NCBI RefSeq assembly: GCF_003054445.1
Contig: NC_042508.1
Coordinates: 2,477,748-2,541,747 of the forward strand
Length of the DNA: 64,000 bases
Reading direction: 5' to 3'
Source: Pichia kudriavzevii
Taxonomy: Eukaryota > Ascomycota > Pichiomycetes > Pichiales > Pichiaceae
Shown: one piece after another, positions 11,149 to 16,324 of the stretch
How the letters are laid out: each line of letters opens with the position of its first letter
How positions within the stretch are numbered: the first letter of the stretch is position 1
Notes under the pieces: model-generated
Database searches by the model: none
What the model was told of the DNA's origin: nothing
Seen by the model: only the letters and a program-made list of their open reading frames with translations
Position numbers and translations under genes: made by a program

Positions 11149-11200
11149 GAGATTCAATGTTAAAAAGTTGAATTTTCATTAAAAGTAAAAAAAATAAACT

Positions 11201-11285
11201 CCCTCCTTCCGGGATCGAACCAGAGACCTCAAGATGTCTTGTATACCATTACAGTCTCGCGCTCTTCCAACTGAGCTAAAGAGGG
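11201..11285 (-). tRNA. tRNA-Tyr (GTA) with a 13-nt intron
   Basis: On the minus strand the 85-nt gene folds as a cloverleaf. The acceptor is CCCTCTT paired with AGGAGGG, the D arm GCTC/GAGC, the anticodon stem CGAGA/TCTTG, and the T arm TCTGG/CCGGA around TTCGATC. The anticodon loop reads CTGTAA, so the anticodon is GTA. A 13-nt intron (starting TGGTATAC) follows position 37, the canonical site, as in Sc tRNA-Tyr genes. The B box is GGTTCGATCCC. A terminator T-run (A8 on the plus strand, 11187-11194) follows the 3' end. It is the probable target that attracted the neighbouring Ty3-type element. Confidence 0.95.
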
Positions 11286-11296
11286 AATTACAAGAG

Positions 11297-11556
11297 TGTA
11301 AGAGATCAGACAAAGGACTATCTCTCTATTTCCACATCGGGTAATCATATAGAAGGTTGAAGAAGATTGTAGAAGGTTAAACAGAAGTTCTAGAAGATAA
11401 TTAAATCCCTCAAAATGCTATTTTTTAAATTAAAGAATTACTATTTAAACAGAGGACATTCCATATATGTTCTCAGAGAATTAACGTATAAAAATATATA
11501 AGATAAAAATAAGCAATAATCAGATTCTAAAGTACGCACCACCAGCAACACTTTCA
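11297..11556 (+). repeat. 5' LTR (260 bp)
   Basis: It starts TGTAAGAGATC and ends CAACACTTTCA, with TG...CA termini. It matches 16060-16319 over its full length by eye. A TATA-like stretch TATAAAAATATATAAG begins at 11487 and probably drives the genomic RNA. The 5-bp duplication AAGAG precedes it. Confidence 0.97.
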
Positions 11557-11558
11557 AT

Positions 11559-11570
11559 TGGTAGCACCGG
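11559..11570 (+). other. Primer-binding site of the retrotransposon
   Basis: TGGTAGCACCGG lies 2 nt after the LTR end. The leading TGG complements the CCA tail of a tRNA. It resembles the site for initiator tRNA-Met (Sc complement TGGTAGCGCCGC) with two differences, so the primer may be initiator Met of this species or another tRNA ending in CCGGTGCTA-CCA. The tRNA itself is not in the window. Confidence 0.7.
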
Positions 11571-11605
11571 CTAGTTAGAAAAGTTCAACAAAGAAATTAA
11601 ACAAC

Positions 11606-12355
11606 ATGAATTCAGAAGTTAACGCGATGCATGCAGGTTCTAACCCGTCGCAAGTTAACTTAAACATGGTATTCAAGGGTAACGAAAAGAACTCTGTTCG
11701 TTTAGCCCAACAATTTCTGTTCAAACTTGACATGGCCTTTAAACTACAAGAAAGTATGGGAAAGGATGTCTCAGAATTATTTAAGGTAGCAACCGCAATG
11801 CTCAACCTCGATGGATCCGCTCTCGCCTGGTTCACTAACAGGTATGGAAACTCCGAATTACCTTTATGGCATCAATTTGTCGAAGAGTTTACACTCGAAT
11901 TCTGTCCAACAGACGAATTTGAGTTGAGACAAGTGGCAGCAAAATACAATGGCTGTCACCAAGGTAAAAATTCCGTGGAACAATTTATCCAGGAATTTGA
12001 AGGGTACCGGACCTTACTCCCAGGTGAGTATGAGAACGAATGGGCCACCAGAGATAGGTTTGTGCAAGGATTACGTGCAGAAATTAGAGGACGCGTATTC
12101 CAACATAGACCAAACTCGCTTGCTGAAGCCAAATTTTTAGCAAGAGACTTTGAGAAGGACTCAGCACCCAGAGCTAGAGACTTTAGATTCTCGCATCAAG
12201 ATAGATGGAGAGGTGAACCAATGGAAATAGACTCCATTAAAAATAAAAATTATCGTGGTCGGAATTTTGACAGTTATAAAAGAAACAAGAATTACAACAG
12301 AAACTATAATGGTGGTTACGCTGGTAGAAAACAAGACAGAGAAAATTTAAATTAG
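11606..12355 (+). CDS. Retrotransposon Gag (capsid) protein
   Basis: A 249-residue protein. Residues of about 25-165 match the retrotransposon gag fold (LDGSALAWFTNRYG, LWHQFVEEFTLEF and VEQFIQEFEGYRTL are typical). The C-terminus (200-249) is rich in Arg, Asn, Tyr and Gly and should bind RNA. There is no CCHC zinc knuckle, which Ty3 Gag does have in its nucleocapsid part, so RNA binding must rely on the basic tail. Gag assembles the virus-like particle in the cytoplasm. The gene ends with TAG at 12353-12355, overlapping the pol frame by 28 nt at a frameshift signal. Confidence 0.93.
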   Translation: MNSEVNAMHAGSNPSQVNLNMVFKGNEKNSVRLAQQFLFKLDMAFKLQESMGKDVSELFKVATAMLNLDGSALAWFTNRYGNSELPLWHQFVEEFTLEFCPTDEFELRQVAAKYNGCHQGKNSVEQFIQEFEGYRTLLPGEYENEWATRDRFVQGLRAEIRGRVFQHRPNSLAEAKFLARDFEKDSAPRARDFRFSHQDRWRGEPMEIDSIKNKNYRGRNFDSYKRNKNYNRNYNGGYAGRKQDRENLN

Positions 12356-15300
12356 TTAGGAACCAAAAGGTGGTTGGTTCCGATATTGCTATAAACCCAC
12401 CTACAATAGAAAATGCAAATCTGCAATTAAAGAACGAGATTCAACACTCTACTAAGTTTGACAAGTATATACTAGATAACAAGGATATAGAAAATTTAAG
12501 TGTTTCGAACGTTTACATGGATAGGAAAGAACTTCCGCTTTTGAAAGTTAAAAATGAATTATTTAAGGAATGTGTTGCTTTAGTTGACAGCGGTGCGTCA
12601 AGAAACTTTTTGGATTACGAATTCGTTAAATCACATCAATTAGAAAATTATTTAGAGCCTACAGAATTTGAAGATGTTGTCGCCGCTAATAAGAAAACGA
12701 TCAGCGTTAAAGGAGAATTAACCTTAGAATTACAATTTAAGCTAAGAGACGAATGGCAAAATGAGAATATTAGATTCTTAGTCTTAGAGAATATCAACCA
12801 TAAAATGATATTAGGTTTCCCATTTGTTAAAGATCATGGAAATAAAGTTGACTGGGAAAATATCGAAAAGGAAACGGAAACTCCTGAAATCCCAGATATC
12901 GAAGAACAAATAGAGTCAAGCGACGAAAACGACTTAGAAGAAACACAAGAAAATGAACTTATAGGTATTAACTCCATGCGTGCAGTTAGAAGAAATTTAA
13001 AGAATGTTGATAATTATCCATTATTACTGTTTGTGCAGTCAGTTGAAGAAAAAGAAAACAATAATGTTTTAGAAGAACCTTACGATGGTGTTGATGGAAT
13101 TAGGAAGAAAATTCATGAAGAATTTAGAGATGTGGTGACCAATGACCAACCCACCAGTTTACCTCCCCAAAGGGATTTGACTCACAGAATTATACTCATT
13201 GAACCTACCAAGAGTACATACAGACGCCAGTACAAATTAAGTTATTCAGAGAAACAAGAGCTGAATAAACAAGTTGATGAACTGCTAAAACAAGGTTTTA
13301 TCAAGCCTAGCTCCAGTCCTTTCAATAGTCCTGTATTATTTGTCAAGAAGAAAGATGGTAGTATGAGAATGTGTGTCGATTATAGGTTATTAAACAACAA
13401 TACGGTAAAAGACAAGTTCCCAATACCACGAATCGATGAATTAATCACATGTTTTGGAGGAGCTTCAGTATTTTCCAAGTTGGATTTGATGTCAGGGTAC
13501 TTTCAGGTCAGAATCGCAGAAAATGATATGGAAAAAACAGCCTTTTCCACAGATTACGGTCACTACGAGTGGGTTGTGATGCCTTTCGGTTTAACCAACG
13601 CCCCTAGTACTTTCCAAAGAATGATGAATAGGATTCTAGCACCTTATTTGAACCAATTTGTTCAGGTGTACCTGGATGATATTATAATTTACTCAAAGAC
13701 TGTCGAAGAACACTACAGTCACATTGAAAAAATATTGGAATTGCTCAGGAGAAATAAGCTGATTGCGAAGAAAAAGAAATGCTCATTTTACTTCAAAACC
13801 TTAGGTTTCTTAGGACATCTCATTTCAAGCAGAGGTATCCAGACTGACCCTGCTAAGATAGACAAAATCAAGAGTTGGCCAATTCCGAAAAACGCCAAAG
13901 ACGCTCAATCATTCCTAGGATTAGCTGGTTATTATCGAAGATTTATCAAAGATTATTCTAAGATTGCATCTCCTATAATGGAATTCGCAAATAAGAAATG
14001 TGTTTGGAAAGAACCTCAAGATAAAGCATTCGAAGAGCTGAAAGGAAAGTTGATTAATGCCCCAATTTTAGTACATCCTATTTGGGAAGATGGTTATACA
14101 TTTGTGGTGCACACAGATGCTTGTGGTACTGCGTTAGGTTACGTGTTAGAACAGCTTGATTCAGATGGAAAATTACGTGGTGTAATAGCCTATGGCTCCA
14201 GGAAATTAATAGGTTCAGAATTAAATTATTCAATATATGACCGTGAATTTCTCGCTGTTGTCGAAGCATTAAAGAACTGGCGTTACTATTTATTAAATCG
14301 GCACTTTGTATTGAAAACAGATCACAGATCGTTGGTCTATTTAAAGCGACAGAATGCAATAGATAGCCATAGAGTGGCCAGATGGTTGGATTATTTAGCT
14401 GATTACGATTTCACCATTCAGTACGTGAAAGGTCCTACTAATTCAGTAGCAGACGCTTTGTCTAGGTACCCCTACGAGGAGAAAGAAGTTGGTATCAACA
14501 CAATAGAATCGGTGTTAACACCAAATCAGGAACTGCTAGAACGGATCATTAAGTCGTACGATGAAGACAATGAAATTAAGGAGATATACGACATATTGAA
14601 AGAGAATTTGCCGATCCCGAAGTCAATCCATAACCACATCAAACATTATTCAATTGAGGATAATTTACTATATTTCTCAGTGGTTAAAGGAGGAAATGAT
14701 CGAAGAATAGTAGTCTCCCCTAAGTCTAAGTTGGTTCAGGAAATTATTGGTAACGCTCATGACGGTAACTCTGCTGGTCATTTCGGGTATTTCAAAACAT
14801 ACATGAGACTTCACCCTATGTTCTACTGGCCAAATATGCTAAAAAGCGTGAAGAGATATTGTCAAAGATGTACGGTTTGCCAGAAAACCAAACCCGAGAC
14901 AACTGGTCAAAGAGGATTATTTTCCCCTCTTCCAATTCCTGAAGGAAGATGGACAGACATCAGTTTGGATTTTGTCACAGGTGTTCCCAGATGCAAAAAT
15001 GGACACGATATGATTTTGGTAGTGGTGGATAGATTCACGAAGATGGCACATTTCATCCCCACTAGGAAAACTGCAACCGCAGAGCAATGTGCAAAATTGA
15101 TGGTAGATAATTGTTTTAAATTACATGGGATTCCAAAAAGAATGGTTTCGGATAAAGATATAAGGTTCATGAATAAATTTTGGTTTACGGTGTACAAGAT
15201 ATTTGGTACATCCTTACTTTTCTCGACCACTAATCATCCTCAAACCGATGGTCAAACAGAAAGAACGAACAGAATCTTAAACCAGTTACTAAGAAATTAT

Positions 15301-16059
15301 GCGAGTAACGATCTCTACAGTTGGGACAAATGGTTGTCAATGGCCGAATTTGCCTACAATAGTTCCCATCAAGTCTCGATAGGTTCATCACCATTTGAAG
15401 TTTGCTATGGTTACTTACCAGACTCGCCAATGTTTATTTCTAGCAGTCGTGTTTCAAGTAGAAGGTACAGCAATAAAGCTGAAGAATTCGCATTAGAAAT
15501 GAAAGTCATCATGGAAAATGTGAAAGAAAACATGATTGAAGCGCAAAGAAGTCAGGAAACACAGCATAATAAGTCGAGAGTGTACGAAACATTTGAAGTT
15601 GGAGATTGGATACTATTACACAAAGATGCATATGGTAGTGATAGATTGTATTACAAAATACAACCGGTATACTACGGACCCTACAAGGTTGTCAAAAAGA
15701 TATCAGACAACGCTTACGAAGTTGATTTACCGAAAACGAATAAAAAGGATAGAGTAATCAATGTCAGATGGCTTAGAAGATTCTTACAAACGGATAAACA
15801 GTTTCCCAAGGTACCCCCAAGAACAATAGCTGAAGCAAGAAGTAGACTGACCGAGATTATCGGTATAGCTGGTATCGACGAAACAAACGATACATTGGAT
15901 GTCTACTGGAAAGATTGTGACCCTTGTCATAGTTCAAGCATCCCATTTTCATTATTTTTAGAGATCCCAGAAGATTTACAGAGAACTTTATGGGATAATG
16001 CAAAAGCAATTGATAAGGACAATAAACTTCGGGACGAAGTTTCTAAAGCGGCGGGGTAA
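12328..16059 (+). CDS. Retrotransposon Pol polyprotein (protease, RT, RNase H, integrase), made as Gag-Pol
   Basis: The pol frame is open from 12328 and has no ATG near its start, so it must be translated by frameshift from gag. The positions below count from the GTG at 12370. The aspartic protease has DSGA (D73). Reverse transcriptase has KLDLMSGYFQV and YLDD (434-437). RNase H begins at HTDACG (about 580). Integrase has the zinc motif H797-H804-C831-C834 and the catalytic triad D867, D928, E964 with the canonical 35-residue spacing. A GPYKVVKKI module follows. The last 80 residues (LDVYWKDCDP...) may be a divergent chromodomain-like tail. All catalytic residues are present, so it looks functional. 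The TAA abuts the 3' LTR directly. Confidence 0.96.
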   Translation, partial: KTRQRKFKLVRNQKVVGSDIAINPPTIENANLQLKNEIQHSTKFDKYILDNKDIENLSVSNVYMDRKELPLLKVKNELFKECVALVDSGASRNFLDYEFVKSHQLENYLEPTEFEDVVAANKKTISVKGELTLELQFKLRDEWQNENIRFLVLENINHKMILGFPFVKDHGNKVDWENIEKETETPEIPDIEEQIESSDENDLEETQENELIGINSMRAVRRNLKNVDNYPLLLFVQSVEEKENNNVLEEPYDGVDGIRKKIHEEFRDVVTNDQPTSLPPQRDLTHRIILIEPTKSTYRRQYKLSYSEKQELNKQVDELLKQGFIKPSSSPFNSPVLFVKKKDGSMRMCVDYRLLNNNTVKDKFPIPRIDELITCFGGASVFSKLDLMSGYFQVRIAENDMEKTAFSTDYGHYEWVVMPFGLTNAPSTFQRMMNRILAPYLNQFVQVYLDDIIIYSKTVEEHYSHIEKILELLRRNKLIAKKKKCSFYFKTLGFLGHLISSRGIQTDPAKIDKIKSWPIPKNAKDAQSFLGLAGYYRRFIKDYSKIASPIMEFANKKCVWKEPQDKAFEELKGKLINAPILVHPIWEDGYTFVVHTDACGTALGYVLEQLDSDGKLRGVIAYGSRKLIGSELNYSIYDREFLAVVEALKNWRYYLLNRHFVLKTDHRSLVYLKRQNAIDSHRVARWLDYLADYDFTIQYVKGPTNSVADALSRYPYEEKEVGINTIESVLTPNQELLERIIKSYDEDNEIKEIYDILKENLPIPKSIHNHIKHYSIEDNLLYFSVVKGGNDRRIVVSPKSKLVQEIIGNAHDGNSAGHFGYFKTYMRLHPMFYWPNMLKSVKRYCQRCTVCQKTKPETTGQRGLFSPLPIPEGRWTDISLDFVTGVPRCKNGHDMILVVVDRFTKMAHFIPTRKTATAEQCAKLMVDNCFKLHGIPKRMVSDKDIRFMNKFWFTVYKIFGTSLLFSTTNHPQTDGQTERTNRILNQLLRNYASNDLYSWDKWLSMAEFAYNSSHQVSIGSSPFEVCYGYLPDSPMFISSSRVSSRRYSNKAEEFALEMKVIMENVKENMIEAQRSQETQHNKSRVYETFEVGDWILLHKDAYGSDRLYYKIQPVYYGPYKVVKKISDNAYEVDLPKTNKKDRVINVRWLRRFLQTDKQFPKVPPRTIAEARSRLTEIIGIAGIDETNDTLDVYWKDCDPCHSSSIPFSLFLEIPEDLQRTLWDNAKAIDKDNKLRDEVSKAAG
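12343..12402 (+). promoter_or_regulatory. Predicted -1 ribosomal frameshift signal: slippery heptamer plus H-type pseudoknot
   Basis: The heptamer A AAT TTA (12343-12349) is in the gag frame in the X-XXY-YYZ register. After a 9-nt spacer, GGAACCA (12359-12365) can pair with TGGTTCC (12375-12381), 7 bp. Inside the loop, AGGTGG (12368-12373) can pair with CCACCT (12397-12402), 6 bp. Loop 1 is 2 nt, there is 1 nt between the stems, and the last loop is 15 nt. These are classic dimensions for an H-type pseudoknot. A -1 slip moves ribosomes from the gag frame exactly into pol before the gag TAG. The same heptamer serves Rous sarcoma virus gag-pol. The function is inferred from sequence; no structure was computed. 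Confidence 0.85.
16045..16059 (+). other. Candidate plus-strand primer (polypurine tract) inside the end of pol
   Basis: The segment AAAGCGGCGGGGTAA lies immediately before the 3' LTR and overlaps the last pol codons and stop. It is purine-rich but interrupted by cytosines, so the true primer may be only the GGGG end. Position is the main evidence. Confidence 0.4.
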
Positions 16060-16319
16060 TGTAAGAGATCAGACAAAGGACTATCTCTCTATTTCCACAT
16101 CGGGTAATCATATAGAAGGTTGAAGAAGATTGTAGAAGGTTAAACAGAAGTTCTAGAAGATAATTAAATCCCTCAAAATGCTATTTTTTAAATTAAAGAA
16201 TTACTATTTAAACAGAGGACATTCCATATATGTTCTCAGAGAATTAACGTATAAAAATATATAAGATAAAAATAAGCAATAATCAGATTCTAAAGTACGC
16301 ACCACCAGCAACACTTTCA
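16060..16319 (+). repeat. 3' LTR (260 bp)
   Basis: Same length, ends and sequence by eye as the 5' LTR. It is followed by the target duplication AAGAG (16320-16324). Identity of the two LTRs implies recent integration. Confidence 0.97.
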
Positions 16320-16324
16320 AAGAG

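Follow-up and report, generated by a model that had tools for sequence, protein, structure and literature searches.

Tandem slippery heptamers and a potential pseudoknot as the likely -1 frameshift signal of the Pichia kudriavzevii retrotransposon PkudTy3A

The window analysed, a stretch of 64,000 nucleotides, forms the right-hand end of a chromosome of Pichia kudriavzevii (Candida krusei), namely the final 64 kb of contig 3 in a genome of 10.79 Mb in five contigs. It carries at positions 11297-16319 a long terminal repeat (LTR) retrotransposon which its sequence features identify as a recent insertion of the Ty3/Gypsy element PkudTy3A. In this element, the segment 12343-12402 at the gag/pol junction is very probably a programmed -1 ribosomal frameshift signal, composed of a tandem slippery tract and a pseudoknot stimulator. 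In the proposed mechanism, Gag would be translated by most ribosomes, with termination at the TAG codon 12353. A minority of ribosomes would be paused by an H-type pseudoknot formed by two stems, S1 and S2, would slip one base back in A AAT TTA AAT via heptamer 1, heptamer 2 or both, and would continue in the pol frame to produce Gag-Pol. The formation of the pseudoknot, the slippage at this place, the site used and its efficiency are predictions. Slippage on heptamer 1 should give a junction peptide ...ENLKLVR... and slippage on heptamer 2 ...ENLNLVR..., two sequences that would tell the sites apart.

The frames, the heptamers, the complementarity of the arms and their identity over the recent copies are read directly in the DNA (coordinates in Table 1). 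The gag gene ends with the codons AGA GAA AAT TTA AAT TAG and pol is open in the -1 frame from 12328, so that the shift must fall within 12328-12355. The first ATG of pol was found at 12517, 161 nt beyond the gag stop, and 18 ATGs, gag start included, are present in 11606-12516. Among 20,000 dinucleotide shuffles, 63 left the initial 63 codons of the pol frame free of stops. The downstream gene is thus in the -1 frame and open through the site, as in canonical eukaryotic -1 signals, and not in the +1 frame expected for a Ty3-type shift. These results are in agreement with an initial annotation of the window, which had placed pol in the -1 frame without a nearby ATG and had opposed this layout to the +1 shift of Ty3; its observation is accurate and the -1 mechanism that it proposed from the letters is very likely right.

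In the same annotation a single slippery site had been described, the heptamer A AAT TTA in register 3 nt before the gag stop. This heptamer is indeed present at 12343-12349, but the site is a tandem: a second heptamer, T TTA AAT (12346-12352), not listed in that annotation, overlaps the first, the whole tract reading A AAT TTA AAT TAG. Like canonical -1 signals, both have the form X XXY YYZ, read in the gag register and inside the overlap, and none of the other in-register positions of gag (248 in all) carries a canonical heptamer. In the 24 other open reading frames (ORFs) of at least 150 aa of the window, canonical heptamers occupy 45 of 13,576 in-register positions (0.33%), and none of these 45 is in tandem; about 0.027 would be expected by chance in the 8-codon overlap. 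In viral -1 signals, the spacer between slippery site and structure is normally nearer to 6 nt than to 9 nt. Heptamer 2, with its 6-nt spacer, is closer to this norm and is for this reason slightly preferred to heptamer 1.

Downstream of the tract, S1 and S2 have the potential to form an H-type pseudoknot with loops of 2, 1 and 15 nt, and the 7-bp S1, the 6-bp S2, these loops and the 9-nt spacing announced in the initial annotation were recovered letter by letter. An eighth S1 pair, 12366-12374, is possible and was formed by RNAfold; in our scan the 8-bp form is listed with loops of 1, 0 and 16 from 12360. In canonical -1 signals a stable structure, often an H-type pseudoknot, is situated about 5-9 nt downstream; here it is present as pairing potential. 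When H-type knots with S1 of at least 7 bp, S2 of at least 6 bp, short L1 and L2 and S1 placed 5-10 nt downstream were sought in dinucleotide shuffles of the 75 nt that follow heptamer 1, a Watson-Crick knot appeared in 1 of 60,000 shuffles, and in 7 of 10,000 with G-U pairs allowed. On both strands of the window, Watson-Crick knots start at 19 of 127,840 positions and correspond to four distinct knots, two of which are the 7- and 8-bp forms of this one; with G-U pairs allowed, 451 positions and 91 distinct knots were obtained. The knot criteria were set after the structure had been seen, so that the shuffle and scan figures overstate the surprise. The S1 hairpin by itself reaches -9.4 kcal/mol (z = -2.5). 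A rough stacking sum, which is not a proper pseudoknot calculation, gives -14.2 kcal/mol for S1 and -13.0 for S2, against -10.0 for the 7-bp hairpin. The penalty for a pseudoknot is near 9-10 kcal/mol, and the rough sum suggests that the knot would remain affordable after its deduction.

The pol frame of 1243 aa was found without stop in six genomic copies (C2, one; C3, two; C4, three). Six intact PkudTy3A elements, one on chromosome B, two on C and three on D, are reported for strain CBS573 by Douglass et al. 2018 (PMC6053246). The element of the window and the published PkudTy3A are the same element, as judged from the same genome, the same number of copies per chromosome and the -1 position of pol, the copies being matched by chromosome count and not by locus tag coordinates. 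The published count is of six intact elements although one of our six full-pol copies, C3:161940, lacks most of gag, which resumes after the LTR at about window position 12163. The junction is colinear in seven copies, six of which share it exactly over 75 nt and over 211 nt. The seventh, L006 (C4:366201), has a shortened pol frame and is 99% identical over 211 nt. According to the same source, element positions differ between two type strains (PMC6053246); together with the identical LTRs, this indicates that the gag/pol layout belongs to a young, recently mobile lineage.

Older copies were then compared. The junction is recognised at about 70% identity in the relics L009-L012, and also in L056, a much older relic at the left end of contig 2. 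This relic aligns gap-free with the window from 12326 to about 12515. Its junction still has the TTA codon, the TAG stop and pol at -1 (gag in frame 2, pol in frame 1); the frame changes again further along pol. Pairs were counted in seven rows, five of them distinct, in which the six identical copies are entered as one row (the window) and the divergent rows are dead copies; L055, L013/L014 and the copies resembling PkudTy3B were left out. In L055 similarity is lost at gag residue 221, and L013/L014 have no recognisable junction. S2 is fully kept in L009-L012, where one pair passes from G-C to A-U by changes on both sides, and in S1 of the same relics one A-U becomes G-C and another G-U. In L010-L012, which represent one lineage, 12 of 14 pairs are kept against 10.1 when the same changes are re-placed at random (P about 0.036); for S2 alone P is 0.05 in L010 and 0.02 in L009. 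L056 keeps 11 of 14 pairs (S1 6/8, S2 5/6). Over the aligned copies, 93.3% of the S2 cells are paired versus 80.0% of the S1 cells. In 500 column shuffles, the covariation score was reached by 28, the number of paired cells by 29 and the number of cells with a two-sided change by 61. When the 3' arms were slid by 1-3 columns, the paired cells fell from 86% to at most 46%; part of this drop is to be expected, since the structure was taken from one of the rows.

Several observations weigh against the proposed signal. The nested folding of the junction does not stand out (z = -0.76 for 81 nt, -0.92 for 50 nt), that of the relic stretches is unstable (z = 0.28 and 0.39), and L006 lacks one terminal S2 pair. 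Placement of the changes over the whole structure gives P values of 0.07 for L009, 0.89 for L056 and 1.0 for L006, and S1 alone gives 0.68-0.69 in L010-L012 and 0.88 in L009; mismatches affect two of eight S1 pairs in L010-L012 and L056 and three of eight in L009. Conservation is not higher in the stem columns than elsewhere (20/28 versus 25/33 in L010; 20/28 versus 21/33 in L056). In the 500 column shuffles, the number of pairs with a two-sided change was reached by 255 and the number of pair types by 389, and sliding the 3' arms by +1 gave three two-sided pairs against two for the actual structure. The relic pol frame displays no third-position excess (19/21/17 of 50/51/51; 7/6/7 of 24/25/25). 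Finally, none of the relics that bear the junction has an intact heptamer, L009-L012 having a 2-nt gap in the tract and L056 substitutions. Relics are broken copies, and the loss of the signal there is consequently no strong argument against a function. On two of the checks proposed in the initial annotation, compensatory changes are present but few (such as the G-C to A-U pair of S2) and statistically weak, and the junction with its heptamers is identical in six of the seven colinear copies but not conserved in the relics. As far as these alignments can be read, the relic comparison gives mild support for S2 and none to speak of for S1.

As a side observation, L009-L012 share an internal gap (window 12433-12735 missing) and have no gag match just upstream of 12235-12240, so that they seem to be descended from one rearranged copy.

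The tandem heptamers could also slip with the S1 hairpin alone as stimulator, or with none, the S2 pairing being then fortuitous. Hairpins suffice as stimulators in some retroviruses, and S1 is stable by itself. The S2 covariation is moreover one change in one relic lineage, and a terminal S2 pair is missing in L006. However, S2 consists of six unbroken Watson-Crick pairs with compact loops, the whole knot turned up in a single one of 60,000 shuffles and S2 is better kept than S1 in the aligned copies, which makes this explanation unlikely.

Splicing is implied by a public gene prediction: the gag/pol-start fusion P0001 (BOH78_5346, P. kudriavzevii) reads ...GGYA-VRNQKVVG..., which by eye is an exact fit to the removal of a 32-nt intron, 12324-12355 (GT...AG). 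Such an intron would be very short for a yeast, and TACTAAC, GTATGT, GTAAGT and GTACGT are all absent from 11606-12700. The sole hit there, GTATGA at 12028, is outside the intron, as is the only branch-like match in 12001-12700, TACTAAG at 12450. A gene caller that disallows frameshifts could yield an intron model of this type; the fusion probably arose in annotation, as an artefact of the frameshift, and splicing itself is highly improbable. Production of pol by its own initiation, through an internal promoter, re-initiation or internal entry, appears very unlikely too. Its first ATG does lie upstream of the protease motif and, according to PMC2194720, the junction of the Candida albicans element Tca2 had a minor promoter activity and its predicted pseudoknot gave no readthrough in Saccharomyces cerevisiae; pol of Tca2 was concluded to come from the gag-pol RNA all the same. 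In PkudTy3A, the pol frame is open before its first ATG back into gag, the 18 ATGs mentioned above, that of gag included, lie ahead of this ATG, and own initiation would leave two canonical heptamers idle at the stop codon.

A -1 shift is in line with what has been printed on this element. In section 9 of PMC6053246, PkudTy3A is said to appear to need -1 frameshifting, which its authors call unusual; the direction of the shift is given there in one sentence, without heptamer or structure, and the word pseudoknot is not indexed in the text. The heptamers and pseudoknot of PkudTy3A were not found in our searches of open-access papers, a scope outside which subscription papers, that on Tyl6 among them, fall. 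What is new here is thus the likely signal, the -1 shift itself being already published; it refines a published remark and is no new kind of mechanism. A shift that had only been noted in print receives a concrete signal that can be tested, in a host which is an industrial and clinical yeast. The initial annotation had considered -1 slippage as unusual for the Ty3 class in yeasts. This is fair with respect to Ty3, and shared by the authors of PMC6053246, but there are precedents: Tyl6 of Yarrowia lipolytica and Taa3 of Blastobotrys adeninivorans are presented as -1 Gypsy elements in PMC4022394. Like PkudTy3A, they are yeast Ty3/Gypsy elements with gag and pol at -1 and are found near tRNA genes. 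More generally, the review PMC5009743 gives pol at -1 in 28 of 51 animal elements surveyed, this direction being dominant in animals, and a less skewed +1/-1 proportion in fungi.

The S. cerevisiae Ty3 resembles PkudTy3A by its Gag capsid family (PF19259), its RNA polymerase III (Pol III) target site and as best structure match (7q5b), and differs by its +1 signal, for which base pairing inside the mRNA is considered unnecessary. In Rous sarcoma virus, AAAUUUA stands directly before the gag stop. This virus and the yeast L-A virus make Gag-Pol by a -1 shift near the end of gag, according to PMC5009743; unlike theirs, the heptamers of PkudTy3A overlap (AAATTTAAAT), and host element and lineage differ. 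Tca2 is, like PkudTy3A, a yeast LTR element with a predicted pseudoknot right after the gag stop (PMC2194720), but is of Copia type (PMC5014426), with an in-frame UGA between gag and pol. The failure of its predicted signal in a reporter assay (PMC2194720) calls for caution with predictions of this kind. With this caution, PkudTy3A is probably a Ty3-lineage yeast element that makes Gag-Pol by means of overlapping heptamers at the gag stop and a compact H-type pseudoknot. If so, the Pichia branch would possess a full viral-style -1 signal where the S. cerevisiae Ty3 employs +1. A confirmed chromosomal -1 signal with pseudoknot in a yeast would bear on the moves of retroelements between +1 and -1, and the spacing preference of the ribosome would be put to a natural test by a single pseudoknot with heptamers 9 and 6 nt ahead of it. 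The general picture of frameshifting is unchanged by this signal.

Relatives were also searched by protein and contig comparison. With pol, at least 4,705 relatives were obtained (8,000 best candidates scored). Among the matches listed, the best 120 of these 4,705, the nearest without a P. kudriavzevii name are P0005-P0007, 59-65% identical and known as proteins alone. The Gag search gave three proteins, two of them named P. kudriavzevii, and the best match is a P. kudriavzevii protein with 99% identity. Viral contigs scanned with pol, gag and the pol alignment gave no confirmed relative. The scan of genome contigs recovered a single locus, L057. This eukaryote-like Gypsy contig, 45% identical to pol, is binned with Cohaesibacter and is probably a contamination of that bin. 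At 1630-1699 of L057, pol is at -1 in a 70-nt overlap, and the heptamer GGGAAAC, in register, abuts the gag TAG; it is the same layout at a distance and says nothing on yeasts. Another Gypsy polyprotein, P0013, 52% identical to the PkudTy3A pol, appears in public databases under a Lactobacillus metagenome bin.

The whole element has the organisation of a Ty3/Gypsy (Metaviridae) LTR retrotransposon, with LTRs, a primer binding site, gag, and pol in the Gypsy order protease, reverse transcriptase, RNase H, integrase. The integrase zinc-binding and C-terminal models score above their cut-offs and the integrase core model below (21.2 versus 32.6 bits), and the top-scoring solved structure found by the pol sequence is Ty3 Gag-Pol 7q5b (E = 2.1e-227). 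The pattern CCGGTGCTA plus CCA, which we take to mark the initiator tRNA-Met, matches three places in the genome by pattern match alone; the primer of Ty3 is the initiator tRNA-Met as well.

Table 1. Positions of the features of PkudTy3A and of its gag/pol junction in the window
Feature	Position	Strand	Remarks
gag/pol overlap	12328..12355	+	28 nt
gag stop codon TAG	12353..12355	+	from the sequence
Slippery heptamer 1, AAATTTA (A AAT TTA)	12343..12349	+	in gag register; 9-nt spacer to stem 1; one codon (AAT) before stop
Slippery heptamer 2, TTTAAAT (T TTA AAT)	12346..12352	+	overlaps heptamer 1; 6-nt spacer to stem 1; abuts gag stop
Stem 1 (S1) 5' arm, GGAACCA	12359..12365	+	8 bp possible with 12366
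Stem 2 (S2) 5' arm, AGGTGG	12368..12373	+	by complementarity
Stem 1 (S1) 3' arm, TGGTTCC	12375..12381	+	by complementarity
Stem 2 (S2) 3' arm, CCACCT	12397..12402	+	by complementarity
tRNA-Leu(TAA) gene	11199..11286	-	5' end 10 nt from PkudTy3A start; Pol III-type target site
Target site duplication AAGAG	11292..11296; second copy 16320-16324		5 bp; direct comparison
5' LTR, TGTA...TTCA (TG...CA ends)	11297..11556	+	260 nt; 260/260 identical to 3' LTR
Primer binding site TGGTAGCACCGG	11559..11570	+	12 nt complementary to CCGGTGCTA plus CCA, end of the initiator-type tRNA-Met pattern
gag, Ty3 capsid-like	11606..12355	+	249 aa; PF19259, PF03732
pol frame, stop to stop	12328..16059	+	1243 aa; -1 relative to gag; protease, RT (reverse transcriptase), RNase H, integrase
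3' LTR	16060..16319	+	260 nt

In 13 loci, tRNA genes were searched for and their places compared with those of the LTRs. No tRNA adjoining an LTR was found in L004, L006, L007, L009, L010 and L011 of these loci. Like the window copy (L002), L003 and L005 have their 5' LTR close to a tRNA 5' end, at 10-11 nt; the distance is 9-11 nt for a partial LTR of L001 and for LTR remnants of L013 and L014, and about 15 nt for those of L012.

In the nine loci L046-L054, assigned to the PkudTy3B-like group by about 60% identity, no gag was found and only pol residues from 218 on match, in 9/9. These dead copies share nonsense codons, with TGA at pol residue 616 in eight of nine loci and, at residue 1115, TGA in six and TAG in two, suggesting that already dead copies multiplied, perhaps via the duplication of chromosome segments.

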